A stretch of DNA of 58,675 bases, from the NCBI GenBank assembly GCA_002839495.1, contig PGYD01000003.1, positions 1 to 58,675 on the forward strand, written 5' to 3'. The DNA comes from Planctomycetes bacterium HGW-Planctomycetes-1. Its GTDB lineage: Bacteria; Planctomycetota; Phycisphaerae; Sedimentisphaerales; UBA12454. Every line of letters starts with the position of its first letter. Position 1 is the stretch's first letter. Below the pieces are notes generated by a model. It had not been told where the DNA came from. It made no database searches and saw only the letters and a list, made by a program, of their open reading frames with translations. A program made the position numbers and the translations under genes. This document shows positions 7,841-46,703 of this stretch, piece by piece.

Positions 7841-8311
7841 ATGAAGATAGCTGATGTTATTTGCGCCAAGGCTATAGTACCACGGCTCAAAGCGGCAAAA
7901 CGGGACGAAGCGATAAAAGAACTTGTCGATATTCTCGACAAGGCGGGCAAAATCGGCAAGGACAACGCGGCTGATATTTCAAAGTCTGTTATCAAAAGAG
8001 AAAACGAGGCCAGTACCGGTATAGGCAAAGGAGTAGCAGTTCCGCATATCAAGCACAAGGCCGTGAAAAAAGTTGTTGCGGCAATTGGAGTAAGCGCTAC
8101 AGGCATCGATTTTTCGGCTTTGGATAAACAGCCGGTTTATACGGTAATTTTGCTGATTAGTCCGCTCGAAGGCGACCAGCACCTTCAGGCGATGGAAGCG
8201 ATATTCGGACAGCTTCAAAACGACAATTTCAGGAAGTTTCTCAAGCAGTCCGAGACAGTAGAACAGATAAAAGAGCTATTGGCCGAAGCAGGTCAGAATC
8301 CATCGTGGTAG
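7841..8311 (+). CDS. ptsN: PTS IIA (fructose/Ntr type) protein
   Basis: STGIGKGVAVPHIKH active-site region; EGDQHLQAMEAIFGQL. Confidence 0.9.
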   Translation: MKIADVICAKAIVPRLKAAKRDEAIKELVDILDKAGKIGKDNAADISKSVIKRENEASTGIGKGVAVPHIKHKAVKKVVAAIGVSATGIDFSALDKQPVYTVILLISPLEGDQHLQAMEAIFGQLQNDNFRKFLKQSETVEQIKELLAEAGQNPSW

Positions 8312-8361
8312 CCTGACCGGAATATTTTTACAGGATTCCTGCTGAATGCACGGGAGAGTAA

Positions 8362-8676
8362 GTGTTGGCAGAAACAGTCAATAAGATAGAAGTTGAGATA
8401 AAGAACGCCAACGGGCTTCATATGCGGCCTGCGATGCAGTTCGTCGATACTGCGAGCAAATTTTCCAGCAGTGTCAAGGTGGGCAACGGAGATATAGAAG
8501 TGGACGGCAAAAGCATAATGCATATGGCGATGCTTGCGGCGGCGGCAGGGACGAAACTGACGATAACAGCCGAGGGAGCGGACGCTCAAAAGGCGTTAGA
8601 GGCACTGAAAGACCTTGTGGAAAACAAGCTTTTCGACGAGTCTGCCTGGCAGGGTAAAAACGAAGCTGATAAATAA
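8362..8676 (+). CDS. ptsH: HPr family phosphocarrier protein
   Basis: NANGLHMRPAMQFVDTASKF (His site), GKSIMHMAMLAAAAGT (Ser46-type site). Confidence 0.92.
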   Translation: MLAETVNKIEVEIKNANGLHMRPAMQFVDTASKFSSSVKVGNGDIEVDGKSIMHMAMLAAAAGTKLTITAEGADAQKALEALKDLVENKLFDESAWQGKNEADK

Positions 8677-8689
8677 GTGAAAATATAAG

Positions 8690-10426
8690 ATGGAAATAAA
8701 AAAAGGAATCGCTGTTTCGCCCGGTATCGCAATTGCCCGGTCGCTTGTTATCGATTCCGAAGATTATCGCATACCAAGACGGTCGATATTGCCGTCGGTA
8801 AAAGTTATGGAGGTTAAGCGGGTCAGGGACGCATTCAAGAAAGCTGTCGCTGAACTTGAAAAGCCCGACTCCGATGAGATAATCGCGGAAGGAAATATAA
8901 AGGATATATTCGCGGTTCATCTGCGTTTCCTGAAAGATAAGAATCTCAGGAAGAAAATTACCGACCTTGTTTATAACGACCTTTTGACGGCGGAATACGC
9001 TGTTTCGACGACACTTCGCGATATAGCCAATCATTTTGCGAGCGTGCAGAACAAGTATATCAGCGAACGGGCGACGGATATTTACGATATTGAGAAGCGT
9101 TTGCTGCGACATCTGCTCGGCAAGAAGCGCGAAGACGTAGGGCACATAAATCGTGAGGTAGTGGTCGTAGCACATGAGTTAAGTCCTACACAAACGGCCG
9201 GTTTCGACAGGAAATTCATAAAAGGATTTGCGACCGATGCAGGCGGCAGGACAAGCCATACGGCTATAGTTGCCCGTTCTTTGGGTATTCCTGCGGTTGT
9301 GGGCCTCGAAGATGTTACGAGAAATGTCGCTCCTGCCGCGACGGTGATAATAGACGGTAATCGCGGCGTGGTAATAATCGAGCCGGACGAGCCGACACTA
9401 AAGGAATATCAGCAGCACGCGATAGAATTTGAAAGGCTCGAAAGAGAGCTTGACGCTCTGCGGGACCTTGACGCGGTTACGCGCGACGGAGTTAAGGTGG
9501 AGCTTTACGGAAATATCGAGTTTCCGCACGAGGCGGAAATAGTAATAGACAAAGGCGGGCAGGGGATAGGCCTTTACCGTACTGAGTTTTTGTATCTTTA
9601 CAGTCAAACCGAACCGACGGAAGAAGACCATTACAGGGCGTACAGCGAAGTCATCAGGGTTTTCGGGAATATGCCGATAGTGATAAGAACGATGGATTTG
9701 GGGGCGGACAAATTTACACAAAGCCGGCGGTTTGTGCGTGAGCCCAACCCGTTTCTCGGTCTTCGTTCGATAAGGTTTTGTCTGCAGAATATCGTGCTGT
9801 TCAAGACTCAACTGCGTGCGATTCTGCGTGCATCGGTTCACGGCGATGTACGGATAATGTTCCCGCTGATAAGCAGTCTTCACGAACTTCGGCAGGCGAA
9901 GATGATATTGCGTGATGTTATGGAAGACCTTGACGAAGACGGGATAAAATATAATTCGAGCGTGCCGGTAGGGATAATGGTTGAAACGCCGTCGGCGGCG
10001 CTTACAGCGTCGATTCTTGCCGGCGAATCGGATTTCTTCAGTATCGGAACAAACGACCTTATTCAATATACTCTGGCGGTTGACCGCGGAAACGAGCGTG
10101 TTTCGACTTTATATTCCGGAGCCGACCCTGCGGTGGTAAGTCTTCTTCGCAGTATTATACACGATGCGAACAAGGCGAAGATAAACGTCAGTATCTGCGG
10201 CGAAATGGCGTCGGAGCCGGAGTTTATTATGCTGCTTTTAGGGCTCGGGTTCAGGACATTTTCGCTTGCTCCGCCGATGATACCGGAAATTAAAAAGCTC
10301 GTCCGCTCGGTTACGGTTGAGTCGTGCAACGTTATCGCTCGGAAAGTTCTTATGATGAATTCGGAACGGGAAGTTATAAATTACCTTCGGAGTGCGGCGA
10401 TGAAGGTTCTTCCCGAAGTGTTCTAA
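8690..10426 (+). CDS. ptsI: Phosphoenolpyruvate-protein phosphotransferase (enzyme I)
   Basis: GGRTSHTAIVARSLGIPAVVG, GIGLYRTEFLY, FSIGTNDLIQYTLAVDRGNE. Confidence 0.97.
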   Translation: MEIKKGIAVSPGIAIARSLVIDSEDYRIPRRSILPSVKVMEVKRVRDAFKKAVAELEKPDSDEIIAEGNIKDIFAVHLRFLKDKNLRKKITDLVYNDLLTAEYAVSTTLRDIANHFASVQNKYISERATDIYDIEKRLLRHLLGKKREDVGHINREVVVVAHELSPTQTAGFDRKFIKGFATDAGGRTSHTAIVARSLGIPAVVGLEDVTRNVAPAATVIIDGNRGVVIIEPDEPTLKEYQQHAIEFERLERELDALRDLDAVTRDGVKVELYGNIEFPHEAEIVIDKGGQGIGLYRTEFLYLYSQTEPTEEDHYRAYSEVIRVFGNMPIVIRTMDLGADKFTQSRRFVREPNPFLGLRSIRFCLQNIVLFKTQLRAILRASVHGDVRIMFPLISSLHELRQAKMILRDVMEDLDEDGIKYNSSVPVGIMVETPSAALTASILAGESDFFSIGTNDLIQYTLAVDRGNERVSTLYSGADPAVVSLLRSIIHDANKAKINVSICGEMASEPEFIMLLLGLGFRTFSLAPPMIPEIKKLVRSVTVESCNVIARKVLMMNSEREVINYLRSAAMKVLPEVF

Positions 10427-41519: not shown

Positions 41520-42839
41520 TTAATTTTTATATCGCTTTATTATAACAACATTATTCTGACCGCCAAAGCCAAAAGATTCCTTCAATACGATATTAACCTC
41601 TGCTTTTCGCGGCTTGTTCGGCACATAATCCAAATCGAGATTTGGGTCCGGGTCGTTAAGATTTGCCGTCGGCGGCAGCACATTATCACGAATCGCGAGG
41701 ATACAGGTAATCATCTCTGCCACACCGGCTGCGCCGATTAAATGCCCCATCATACTTTTGACACTGCTGACGGGGGTATTCTTCGCTTCTTCCTTAAAAA
41801 CCTTTTTTATGGCCAGAGTCTCAATCGAATCGTTCTCGGAAGTGCTTGTGCCGTGTGTACTTACATAATCTATATCCTTATAGGATACTTTTGCGTCTTT
41901 CAGGGCCGCTTCCAACGCCGCGACGGCTCCGCGGGCATCTTCGTGCATATCGGTTACACGAAAAGCGTCGCTGCTGCTGCCGTAGCCGAGAACCTCGGCG
42001 AGAATTTCAACGCCTCGTTTCTTTGCCGATTCGAGCGTTTCGAGTATGACGATTGCCGCTCCTTCGCCGATGACAAATCCGTCTCTGCTTGCGGTGAACG
42101 GACGCGAAGCGGTTTCGATACTATCGTTTCTGGTCGATAGGGCGGTCAGGCGGTTAAAGCCCATAACGCCCAAAGGATGAATCATCGAATGCGCGCCGCC
42201 GGCGAGCATTACATCGGCTTGGCCGGACTGCAAAATCTTAAATGCTTCGCCGATTGCCTGGGTGCTTGCCGCACAAGCCGTAAGGCAGCTTCTAATCACC
42301 CCGCGAGCGCCGGTCAGCATCGAGACGTGAGCGGCAGGCATATTCGGTTCCTGCTCAAGCTCGCGATAAGGCTGCATTTTGCCGAAGGCAACGGCTGCCC
42401 ATTTGTTCCAGTCCATCGTTCCGGCAGCGTCGTCCCAGCCCTGGACAATAGCGTTAAAGAAATTCTCGTTATCGACAGAGCCTTCGCCGGCGCCCAGATA
42501 TATGCCGATTCTTCTGCGGTCAATGCCGTCTTTGGGATTTTCTGTTTCTACATCTATTTTTGCCTGTTTGCAGGCCTGGGATGCCGCTCCGACAACGAAT
42601 TTACTGTGGCGGTTGCCATCTTTGTGCAGGTCGGGGTTCTTTGTGAATTTTGTAATGTCGTAATTTTTGACCTCGCAGCAGAATTTTGTCGGATATGTCG
42701 AGGCGTCGAAAATCGTGGTCTTATTCATACCGCTGCGGCAGTTGAGAATATTGTCCCACATTGTCGGAATATCGTTGCCGAGCGGACAAACGATGCCCAT
42801 TCCTGTTATCACAACACGATTTTTTGTTTTCTCATTCAT
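41520..42839 (-). CDS. Beta-ketoacyl-ACP synthase (FabF-like), C-H-H catalytic set intact
   Basis: RVVITGMGIVCPLGND; SCLTACAASTQAIGEA; STHGTSTSENDS; KSMMGHLIGAAG. Confidence 0.93.
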   Translation of the reverse strand: MNEKTKNRVVITGMGIVCPLGNDIPTMWDNILNCRSGMNKTTIFDASTYPTKFCCEVKNYDITKFTKNPDLHKDGNRHSKFVVGAASQACKQAKIDVETENPKDGIDRRRIGIYLGAGEGSVDNENFFNAIVQGWDDAAGTMDWNKWAAVAFGKMQPYRELEQEPNMPAAHVSMLTGARGVIRSCLTACAASTQAIGEAFKILQSGQADVMLAGGAHSMIHPLGVMGFNRLTALSTRNDSIETASRPFTASRDGFVIGEGAAIVILETLESAKKRGVEILAEVLGYGSSSDAFRVTDMHEDARGAVAALEAALKDAKVSYKDIDYVSTHGTSTSENDSIETLAIKKVFKEEAKNTPVSSVKSMMGHLIGAAGVAEMITCILAIRDNVLPPTANLNDPDPNLDLDYVPNKPRKAEVNIVLKESFGFGGQNNVVIIKRYKN

Positions 42840-44145
42840 ATTTTTTCAGAATAATCGCGGCAGTCTGGCCGCCGTAAGTATAACTTGTGCAAAGAACATA
42901 ATTGTTCTTTTTCTTAATCTGTTCTTTGGCGATATTTAATTTGCAATCTTTATTGATGTTTTCGCAATTTTTAGCCGCCGGAATAATTCCGTCTTTAATC
43001 GCACAGCAGGCGGCGATAATATCGACCGCACCAGCCGCTGCTCCAGTGTTACTCGTCATACTCTTTGTCGGAAATACAGGTATCGAATCGGTTGCATTAC
43101 CGAGAGCCTGCCTGATTCCCTTTGCCTCGGCTGTATCGTCGGCTAAAATGCCAGTTCCGTGCGGAATAATCAAATCGAGCTGCTGGGGTTTTATCCCCGC
43201 ATCTGCAAGGGCGGCTTCGATTGCGTATTGAACGCCTTTGCCGTCCGGCTCGAGAGATTCATATTTTGCGTTTATACTGCAGCTTTGACCCAAACCTGCG
43301 ATTTGAGCGTAGATTTTCGCGTTGCGTTTTTTCGCGTTTTCTGGATTTTCAAGGATTACATTCGCCGCCGCTTCGCCGAAAACCGAACCTTTCGCGTCTG
43401 CATCGAAAGGCCGACAGGCCTTTTCGGGTTTATCGTTATAGTCCGCAGTTGCGCGATTGAGAAGACACTGCCTCAAATGTACGATAGCGTTTACTTTTGC
43501 TTCACCGCCGCCTGCAAGGGCGAGGTTCGCATCGCCGCGAGCGATTATCTGGGCGGCTTCGGCGATTGCCAAAAGCCCCGCGGACTCGGCACAGGTAATC
43601 GTATTGCTCATCCCCTGTATGTCGTGAATGATGCCGATGTGGCAGGCGAGCATATTGGGCAAATATTTAAGCAGCCACAGAGGCGTAACCGCTTCAATGC
43701 TGTATGTGCCCCATTTTTTTATATCGAATTTTCCGTCCGTGATGCCTTTCGCGACCGCAGGAGCAAGCTCGACAAGGTCGCAGCTTATAAGCCCTGCGCC
43801 GAGAATAATTGCCGTTCTTTCCGGATTGATATTTATATTCTGCTCATCGAAAGCCTTGGTTATTAGTCCTGCATCCTTGAATGCCTCGTTAGCGGCGATA
43901 ACGGCAAGCTCGATATCTCGCGACATCAGCTTTGTAGTTTTGCGAATCGCTTTGGGAACGTGGTCGCGGATACTAAATTCCGGCGCCTGACCTGCAATCT
44001 GACAGGTAAAACCCGCCGGGTCAAAAGCGGTAATTCTGCCTATTCCGCATTTACCCTGGCAAAGACCAGACCATAAATCCTGATAGCTTAAGCCGAGCGG
44101 AGTAACCGCTCCCAATCCTGTTATTACCGGCTTATGAGAGGTCAT
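42832..44145 (-). CDS. Second beta-ketoacyl-ACP synthase-like protein, C-H-N
   Basis: PVITGLGAVTPLGLSYQDLWSGL; NTITCAESAGLLAIAEA; IPHGTGILADDTAE; KSMTSNTGAAAGAVD. Confidence 0.9.
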   Translation of the reverse strand: MTSHKPVITGLGAVTPLGLSYQDLWSGLCQGKCGIGRITAFDPAGFTCQIAGQAPEFSIRDHVPKAIRKTTKLMSRDIELAVIAANEAFKDAGLITKAFDEQNININPERTAIILGAGLISCDLVELAPAVAKGITDGKFDIKKWGTYSIEAVTPLWLLKYLPNMLACHIGIIHDIQGMSNTITCAESAGLLAIAEAAQIIARGDANLALAGGGEAKVNAIVHLRQCLLNRATADYNDKPEKACRPFDADAKGSVFGEAAANVILENPENAKKRNAKIYAQIAGLGQSCSINAKYESLEPDGKGVQYAIEAALADAGIKPQQLDLIIPHGTGILADDTAEAKGIRQALGNATDSIPVFPTKSMTSNTGAAAGAVDIIAACCAIKDGIIPAAKNCENINKDCKLNIAKEQIKKKNNYVLCTSYTYGGQTAAIILKKYE

Positions 44146-44633
44146 TTATCGCTCCCAAAGGCAGGTGCAGCAATGCCTGACGCCCTTAAGACAACGCCGA
44201 ACAGGTCGGTAAATACGAAGTTTTCTTTTGGAAATTGTTTGCCCGCGAGATTTTGGTCGATGTGGCTGAACATCAAATCAATTTCAGCGATTGTTTCGTC
44301 GCCGCAGGTGATTTTGCCTGTTGTCGAGGCGGCCTCGTCGGCAATCGATTCGATTTTGGCGTGAATTTTTATCGTATCTCCCGGCCGGACGTAGTTGAAA
44401 AACACAGCCTTATTGATTTTCGCAAGGATTACCTTTTCTTTGAACTGCCGCGCTTCGCCGACAAGAATGCCCGCAGTTTGCGCCATCGACTCAATCATCA
44501 GACATTCCGGCATAATCGGAAAGCCGGGAAAATTATCGTGCAGATACTCCTCAGCCATAGTTACATTCTTTATGGCGACGGCATTTGAGCCGCTGTTGAA
44601 CTCAATGAATTTATCTATCCAAATCCAACGCAA
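44142..44633 (-). CDS. FabZ-like hydroxyacyl-ACP dehydratase homologue, catalytic His replaced by Asn
   Basis: VTMAEEYLHDNFPGFPIMPECLMIESMAQTAG aligned to FabZ FFxGHFPxxPxxPGVLxxEAMAQ. Confidence 0.85.
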   Translation of the reverse strand: MRWIWIDKFIEFNSGSNAVAIKNVTMAEEYLHDNFPGFPIMPECLMIESMAQTAGILVGEARQFKEKVILAKINKAVFFNYVRPGDTIKIHAKIESIADEAASTTGKITCGDETIAEIDLMFSHIDQNLAGKQFPKENFVFTDLFGVVLRASGIAAPAFGSDK

Positions 44634-44689
44634 ATTTATTACCTACAGTGTTAATCCGTGTCTAATAAAGAACCGCATTAATCCGCGTC

Positions 44690-45088
44690 TTAAGCGGCCG
44701 CATTAAGTTTGCCGTCAACGAAATTAACAAGTGCATCGACGGTAAACAAATCACCGATTTTATTGACGCTCGGGTCTTCGATAAATGCTGAAAGGTCGCT
44801 GTGCGGCATACGCTTCTTCAGCTCGTCCAGGCCCTTTTGGGTGAGCTTGCCGTTGCTGACGTATTCGGCAGTGCTTAAAAGGCTTTCAGCAGGAAAGAGC
44901 TCTTCTCTTGGTATTTTTATTCCGAACGCTTTTTCCATACGAAAAACGATATCGAGAAAATCGATGCTTTCAGCGCCGAGGTCCGCCATCAAAGTGGCGT
45001 CCGGCTTAACTTCTTCTTCATCAACTCCGAGAGCATCGACAAGTACGTCCTGAATTTCCTTTAAAATCTCATCCCGCGTCATAGCCAT
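44690..45088 (-). CDS. Acyl carrier protein, extended (132 aa)
   Basis: ATLMADLGAESIDFLDIVFRMEKAFGIKIPREEL (phosphopantetheine Ser), TVDALVNFVDGKL C-terminus. Confidence 0.92.
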   Translation of the reverse strand: MAMTRDEILKEIQDVLVDALGVDEEEVKPDATLMADLGAESIDFLDIVFRMEKAFGIKIPREELFPAESLLSTAEYVSNGKLTQKGLDELKKRMPHSDLSAFIEDPSVNKIGDLFTVDALVNFVDGKLNAAA

Positions 45089-45131
45089 AACTTAAATCTC
45101 CGATAATAAAACATTAATCCTTTAATTACAT

Positions 45132-45181
45132 TGTCATTTCGAGCGAAGTCCCGATTTATCGGGACGAAGTCGAGAAATCTT
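45132..45181. repeat. Dispersed hairpin repeat TGTCATTTCGAGCGAAGTCCCGAT-TT-ATCGGGACGAAGTCGAGAAATCTT
   Basis: Perfect 18-nt palindrome GTCCCGATTTATCGGGAC flanked by CGAGCGAAG / CGAAGTCGAG arms. Confidence 0.7.
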
Positions 45182-45241
45182 TTGAGAACTCCGTGCCGAA
45201 GGCACTCCAAAAATTTTCAATTTTCAATCTTCAATATTAAA

Positions 45242-45724
45242 TTATGCAGCTCCGCTTCCGGCTGCTAATAATTTGTATCTTTCTTTTAATTTATTTATAA
45301 CATAGGCATCTTCGACAGCGAGTTTCGAATCTTTCTCGGCAAGGTTAAAATGTCTCAAACTGAACCTTGCCTCGACGATAGGTTCTCCGTTGCAGGTGCC
45401 TGTTCCCGAAAACGAACTTATATTTTCTTCTATATCCTTTGCCGTAACGGTGTACTGAATAGTCGCACCGGGAGCGGCAAAGCTTTTGTATTTTACATTT
45501 TTTGCCTGCCCAAGCAACACCATACTATGGGCAAAATTTTCGCTGTCCCTGACGAGCCAGCAGGCCGATTCGACCAACCCCTGCAGCAGAAAAACGCCCG
45601 GAAGTACCGGAAAAACGGGGAAATGGTCCCCCAGATATTCCTCAGAAAGGGATACATTCTTGATAGAGGTTATCTTTTTACCGGGCACTATTTTAACTAT
45701 TTTATCAATCAGTATGAACTTCAT
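45242..45724 (-). CDS. FabZ-like hydroxyacyl-ACP dehydratase homologue, catalytic Glu replaced by Gln
   Basis: VSLSEEYLGDHFPVFPVLPGVFLLQGLVESACWLV. Confidence 0.85.
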   Translation of the reverse strand: MKFILIDKIVKIVPGKKITSIKNVSLSEEYLGDHFPVFPVLPGVFLLQGLVESACWLVRDSENFAHSMVLLGQAKNVKYKSFAAPGATIQYTVTAKDIEENISSFSGTGTCNGEPIVEARFSLRHFNLAEKDSKLAVEDAYVINKLKERYKLLAAGSGAA

Positions 45725-45912: not shown

Positions 45913-45989
45913 CAGCAAGGACAAAAACACAGTGGAGAAAATCAAGAGATAATTTATTTGGAGAGAACTTGCGCTGTGAGAGGAATACA

Positions 45990-46703
45990 ATGGAGCATAA
46001 AATTTTTCCGGTCGTTTTTGTTTTTCTAACCATCACAGCAATCTCATCGGCTCAGTATGATTATCCCGATTTGGCGGGCGACGCCGATATAATCAATTTC
46101 GCCGATTTCGCCGTCTTTGCCGAAAACTGGCAGAAGTCAGGCACCGGATTAGCGGGCGATTTCGACGACAGCGGCAAAGTCGATTTTAACGATTTAGCCT
46201 ATCTTTCCTATTACTGGCTTACCGCACAATGGGAATGCAGGAAAATCGACCTCGATTACAGCGGCCTGATTGATTTTTCCGATTTTGTAATTTTCGCCGA
46301 CTGCTGGCTCAGCAGTGACGGTAGTCCGAACTATAAGACAAATTGCGATTTTGACGACGATGATATAGTTGATATTTACGATTTAAAGGCCTTTTGCAAT
46401 TGCTGGCTCAAAGGCACAAGACCGCAGGGTATCTGGGAACAGTTCAAGGCTGCACTGGCGGCAGGCGATATAGACCGAGCCGTCAGTTTCTTTGCTGTTT
46501 TCGTGGCGGACGATTATAGAGACATATTTAATGAACACAGCGATAAATTGCAGAGTTTAGCGGCCGATATGGGCCAATTAACTCTTGAATACAGGGATAG
46601 AGATATTGCCGTTTATGAGTTAAGCAACGCCGCAGGCAATCTCTTCTTTCCGGTCGTTTTTACTATGGACGACGAAAGCAAATGGAAAATCGCGGTCTTC
46701 TAA
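45990..46703 (+). CDS. Secreted protein with dockerin-like EF-hand repeats
   Basis: Signal peptide MEHKIFPVVFVFLTITAISSAQ; GDFDDSGKVDFNDLAYLSYYW, DLDYSGLIDFSDFVIFADCW, DFDDDDIVDIYDLKAFCNCW. Confidence 0.8.
   Translation: MEHKIFPVVFVFLTITAISSAQYDYPDLAGDADIINFADFAVFAENWQKSGTGLAGDFDDSGKVDFNDLAYLSYYWLTAQWECRKIDLDYSGLIDFSDFVIFADCWLSSDGSPNYKTNCDFDDDDIVDIYDLKAFCNCWLKGTRPQGIWEQFKAALAAGDIDRAVSFFAVFVADDYRDIFNEHSDKLQSLAADMGQLTLEYRDRDIAVYELSNAAGNLFFPVVFTMDDESKWKIAVF

Follow-up and report, generated by a model that had tools for sequence, protein, structure and literature searches.

In FabA each active site draws residues from different subunits, and the catalytic dyad of FabZ superposes on that of FabA (PMC2698920). 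Heterodimeric dehydratases with a single active site have been described for ApeI/ApeP of aryl polyene (APE) synthesis (PMC8041823) and for mycobacterial HadAB, a hot-dog enzyme (PMC4491049). In the dehydratase domains of type I PKS, which are double hot-dogs with one composite site, one hot-dog supplies the His and its partner the acid (PMC9135731). Here we describe a pair of FabZ-like proteins, DHQ and DHN, from a planctomycete operon and compare it with these systems.

The analysed stretch of DNA (the window) comprises 58,675 nucleotides. Its minus strand carries an operon with the gene order DHQ, ACP, DHN, KSN, KS and the following features:

45242 to 45724, minus strand: DHQ, FabZ-like subunit, proposed His donor (PF07977, E 2.1e-14; motif DHFPxFPxLPGV kept; Gln48)
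45623 to 45625, minus strand: DHQ catalytic His34, codon CAT, at the FabZ His54 position (alignment to FabZ)
45581 to 45583, minus strand: DHQ Gln48, codon CAG, at the FabZ Glu68 position (alignment to FabZ)
45569 to 45571, minus strand: DHQ Glu52, codon GAA, at the FabZ Gln72 position, an acid one helical turn past Gln48
44690 to 45088, minus strand: dedicated ACP between both dehydratase genes (PF00550, E 1.1e-13)
44142 to 44633, minus strand: DHN, FabZ-like subunit, proposed Glu donor (PF07977, E 9.9e-15; LMIESMAQTAG kept; Asn34)
44532 to 44534, minus strand: DHN Asn34, codon AAT, at the FabZ His54 position (alignment to FabZ)
44490 to 44492, minus strand: DHN catalytic Glu48, codon GAG, at the FabZ Glu68 position (alignment to FabZ)
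42832 to 44145, minus strand: KSN, ketosynthase-like, Glu in place of the catalytic Cys, a chain-length-factor-like partner
41520 to 42839, minus strand: KS, FabF-type ketosynthase with Cys-His-Lys-His intact

The gene order DHQ-ACP-DHN was conserved across the loci of relatives that we compared. The Cys-His-Lys-His residues were intact in all 34 KS homologues, and among 64 aligned KSN homologues the catalytic Cys position was occupied by Glu in 58 cases, by Asp in 4 and by Cys in none. An intact KS thus stands beside a Cys-less KS homologue, the arrangement by which type II ketosynthase/chain-length-factor pairs are recognized. This suggests that KS and KSN are a pair of that type, which would make the operon similar to a small type II synthase of the reducing kind. 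One relative that belongs to a class other than that of the window's genome (L047) has a FabG ketoreductase gene (8261 to 9082, plus strand) between DHQ and ACP, and FabF after DHN.

A sequence-only reading of this locus had proposed that the catalytic His is replaced by Asn in DHN while the Glu is kept, and that DHQ keeps the His and has Gln in place of the Glu. The sequence and the alignment with FabZ confirmed both: Asn34 and Glu48 of DHN and His34 and Gln48 of DHQ do occupy the catalytic positions. The numbering reference in our alignments was what we take to be the sequence of E. coli FabZ. The two proteins scored above the gathering cut-off of the FabA-like family PF07977 (54.8 bits for DHN and 53.7 for DHQ versus 23) and below the cut-offs of TIGR01750 (90.5 and 75.4 bits, curated cut-off 155.15) and NF000582 (92 and 81.6, cut-off 113). 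The combination that marks a canonical homodimeric FabZ, His and Glu in one chain, is absent from DHN (Asn) and from DHQ (Gln). AlphaFold models of both proteins (mean pLDDT 84 for DHN and 89 for DHQ) show the hot-dog fold and have FabZ crystal structures as their top matches, namely 3d6x (E 1.8e-11) for DHQ and the anammox amxFabZ for DHN. The window's genome encodes two more FabA-domain proteins, one of which is a canonical FabZ (an LpxC-FabZ fusion). A FabA-domain protein of this genome other than DHQ and DHN (L080, G000:C11) has the unusual motif GHIPGRPLMPAVIMIEAAAQ.

We compared the sequence surroundings of the two catalytic positions, using the E. coli FabZ numbering. Both halves of the motif are invariant across 30 canonical LpxC-FabZ proteins from this order, the His half at H54, P56, P59, P62, G63 and V64 and the Glu half at E68, A71, Q72 and G75. 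DHQ retained the His half (H, F55, G63 and V64 at a frequency of 1.00, P56 at 0.99), and its Glu half was eroded: E dropped to 0.83, A71 changed to V or I, Q72 to E or Q and G75 to A or S. For DHN we observed the reverse. All four positions of the Glu half (E, A71, Q72 and G75) were at 1.00, and in the His half H fell to 0.93, F55 to 0.84 and P56 to 0.88, with G63 changed to E or A and V64 to S or C. Twelve DHN, and no DHQ, had 6 to 11 residues inserted between the catalytic His and Glu positions. As the sites of FabA and FabZ span subunits, with one chain supplying the His and its partner the acid, the His half of DHQ and the Glu half of DHN would come together in a single site when the two proteins dimerize. 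The asymmetry is found phylum-wide in our phylum sample and, judged from the sequences, is older than the Asn and Gln losses. This corrects the sequence-only reading.

We consider it probable from these sequence patterns that DHQ and DHN are a FabZ-type heterodimer with one site to which DHQ contributes the His and DHN the Glu, and with a decaying twin site. We infer that the two proteins would physically heterodimerize, act as a dehydratase and use the neighbouring ACP. In such a scheme the hot-dog heterodimer would dehydrate 3-hydroxyacyl chains on the operon ACP. The site formed by His34 of DHQ and Glu48 of DHN would be complete and conserved in the mixed dimer, and the twin site (residue 34 of DHN and residue 48 of DHQ) would be unneeded and decay in many lineages, with Asn and Gln as the outcome in the window. 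More tentatively, the mixed dimer may have been fixed first, thereby freeing one of the two sites, and the freed site may then have been lost many times, with Asn, Tyr, Leu, Lys, Cys or Gln taking the place of the His and with a Glu/Gln swap.

We surveyed 245 DHQ/DHN pairs from Planctomycetota in which all four catalytic positions were resolved. Writing the state of a pair as DHN His and Glu, followed by DHQ His and Glu, we found HE/HE in 194 pairs, HE/HQ in 25, NE/HQ in 11, YE/HE in 5, NE/HE in 4 and LE/HE in 3; YE/HQ, QE/HE and CE/HE were seen once each. In DHQ the His was invariant in 245 of 245 pairs, and so was the Glu in DHN. On a FastTree topology computed with the two catalytic columns left out, parsimony required 15 changes of the DHN His, 19 of the DHQ Glu and none of either the DHQ His or the DHN Glu. 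Restricting the count to well-supported independent branches gave 10 contrasts for the DHN His and 8 for the DHQ Glu. All 18 contrasts fall on one diagonal, which would occur by chance in about 4 cases in a million if both diagonals were equally free. The invariance of one His and one Glu, the repeated losses in the twin site and the reciprocal half-motifs support the earlier suggestion of a composite site, with the other site dispensable. The two losses in the window do not belong together as one matched event: 194 of the 245 pairs keep both residues in each chain. Gln without a lost His was observed in 25 of the 245 pairs and a lost His without Gln in 14, and there was no association between the Asn and the Gln among phylogenetically independent pairs. 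A further pair beyond the 245 has Lys for the DHN His and an intact DHQ. Lys replaces the catalytic His in the two DHN copies of one genome (L344, L400 and L403), and one of these copies adjoins an ACP and an intact DHQ.

The two proteins could also form separate homodimers with two functions and non-FabZ chemistries, DHQ as a His-only enzyme, similar for instance to the hot-dog decarboxylase AmcE, and DHN as a Glu-only enzyme similar to a thioesterase. Such activities do exist on this fold: AmcE is a FabZ-like decarboxylase (PMC10698177) and many hot-dog thioesterases have an acid where FabZ has its Glu as their only catalytic residue (PMC2698920). We nevertheless regard this as unlikely, because both chains of most relatives keep His and Glu, the half-motifs that are retained would together build a single FabZ site, the single ACP between DHQ and DHN is conserved in the gene order and mixed dimers have a direct precedent in ApeI/ApeP.

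Another alternative keeps the heterodimer and denies it dehydratase activity, original or retained, in the window's family, where it would bind or gate acyl-ACP while the LpxC-FabZ fusion carries out the dehydration. The window's genome does encode a canonical FabZ, as do 57 of the 59 genomes sampled from the order. Furthermore, Asn34 of DHN reproduces the H48N mutation of Scalindua brodae amxFabZ, a mutant that according to its PDB title was crystallized as 8ayi. However, a binding or gating role leaves the invariance of one His and one Glu at one site in all 245 pairs unexplained, and we consider it quite improbable.

We then return to the heterodimer with one composite site and to the state of its twin site. 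The substitution in DHQ had been described as a loss of the Glu. In 37 of 37 DHQ sequences with Gln68, plus two more examined, position 72 is occupied by Glu or Asp, and the 110 DHQ that lack an acid at 72 never show Gln68. Because an acid follows one helical turn later in every Gln-bearing DHQ examined, the change is a Glu/Gln swap and not a plain loss. The twin site in the window accordingly consists of Asn and Gln, and a Glu follows the Gln at a distance of one helical turn. From its position in the sequence this nearby Glu or Asp might assume the role of the acid, and a dead twin site is therefore least certain where DHN retains its His. A mean-field DCA between the chains (Neff 130) gave DHN 64 and DHQ 72 as the top pair (z 8.4), located at the residual site. 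Phylogenetically independent pairs lent this coupling no support and we thus left it out as evidence.

Within the window's family DHN carries the Asn in 11 of 13 genomes, and Asn and Gln occur together as a resolved pair in nine of the 13 (window included). DHQ could be resolved in nine of the 11 family genomes with an Asn-bearing DHN and showed Gln every time. The two residues thus co-occur within the family, but no association between them remains once phylogeny is taken into account. The two exceptions in the family combine His in DHN with Gln in DHQ (G439) and Tyr with Glu (G435). Two genomes of another family in the order (L136 and L162) likewise combine Asn with Gln. As this pair recurs in nine genomes of the window's family and in the second family, the changes are substitutions and not errors.

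Across the order DHN was found in 146 of the 161 genomes, and all 66 of the 66 high-quality genomes have it. A search for DHQ, separate from that for DHN, also gave matches in 66 of 66 high-quality genomes, a count that is slightly inflated, as G433 and G441 at the least contribute a single match each that is a cross-match to DHN. The dN values within the family were 0.05 to 0.09 for DHN and 0.10 to 0.15 for DHQ; dS was about 1 or higher, so close to saturation that the dN/dS ratios are rough. Both genes are under strong purifying selection and are not decaying. The view that subfunctionalization explains the locus better than decay was thus right in rejecting decay. Drift in an operon that is being lost, or wrong base calls in the draft genome (167 contigs), would need a single base for each change, yet the probability of either is negligible, as Asn and Gln are common to separate genomes of the family, the reading frames are open, dN is low versus a near-saturated dS and both genes are near-universal in the order; this conservation in relatives rules out assembly error and decay.

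The pairing itself is not strict. In the complete genome G433 (L198) DHN is present and no DHQ was detectable, and in its sister G434 (L392) DHQ lies about 1.5 Mb from DHN. These two genomes indicate that the pairing of DHQ and DHN is not absolute, and the first of them speaks against the description of the pair as obligate. The DHN of G433 retains both His and Glu, which fits the heterodimer model as a single case.

Canonical FabZ (TIGR01750; amxFabZ, PDB 7qv0, 8ayb and 8ayd) shares the fold and the position of the dyad with DHQ and DHN and gave the best sequence and structure matches. It has His and Glu in each chain, whereas DHQ and DHN retain one half-motif per chain. The division into a His half and a Glu half on two hot-dog subunits is shared with ApeI/ApeP. 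In E. coli CFT073 we assigned ApeI and ApeP from the gene order; the His half is retained in ApeI as GHFAVQPLLPGV (GHF..PLLPGV), and ApeP has the Glu half LELMAQTVG without the His. By this assignment DHQ would work like ApeI and DHN like ApeP. Unlike in the DHN/DHQ series, which shows intermediate states, the His-loop motif of ApeP is wholly gone. An APE cluster combines a KS-CLF pair and ACPs, which resemble the KS/KSN and ACP of the window, with a ketoreductase, an exporter, a glycosyltransferase and an acyl-CoA synthetase; that of E. coli CFT073 served for comparison. The window's operon holds only DHQ, ACP, DHN, KSN and KS and no other APE genes adjoin it, so that it does not qualify as an APE cluster. 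The sequences appear only distantly related: hhalign to ApeI/ApeP gave an E-value of about 1e-4 at a probability of about 51%, and the profile matches to PDB 6qsr, which we read as ApeI:ApeP from its two molecule names, were weak (E 0.023 and 0.54). A comparison of descent with ApeI/ApeP involves long branches and weak profile matches.

In the type I PKS dehydratase domains the two halves are fused in one chain and the acid is Asp, in contrast to the two genes and the Glu of DHQ/DHN. In HadAB the dyad does not cross the subunits: HadB carries both catalytic residues, and HadA binds the substrate. We rejected a HadAB-type enzyme (MaoC-like, with His and Asp in one subunit) since its dyad sits in one subunit and in our pairs the His is invariant in DHQ and the Glu in DHN.

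The cross-subunit design with a single site is already known from ApeI/ApeP, and here it is probably caught at several evolutionary stages. Hundreds of natural pairs, ranging from intact to fully asymmetric, show half of a symmetric two-site enzyme being lost, and the step from a homodimer to a heterodimer with a single composite site becomes testable by residue swaps. They also call for caution in annotation, as a chain-by-chain approach would label both DHQ and DHN as inactive FabZ. More tentatively, the FabZ heterodimer may be phylum-wide and midway from two sites to one, forming a series towards an arrangement like ApeI/ApeP or a double hot-dog, and the operon may possibly serve an undescribed lipid or polyketide of Planctomycetota. 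This acyl-ACP operon is near-universal in the window's planctomycete order, and in the literature searched, with most subscription journals outside the coverage, we found no paper describing a DHQ-ACP-DHN-KSN-KS operon. Upstream of the operon in the window lies a divergently transcribed ORF (45969 to 46703, plus strand) with dockerin-like repeats (PF00404, E 5.5e-06).
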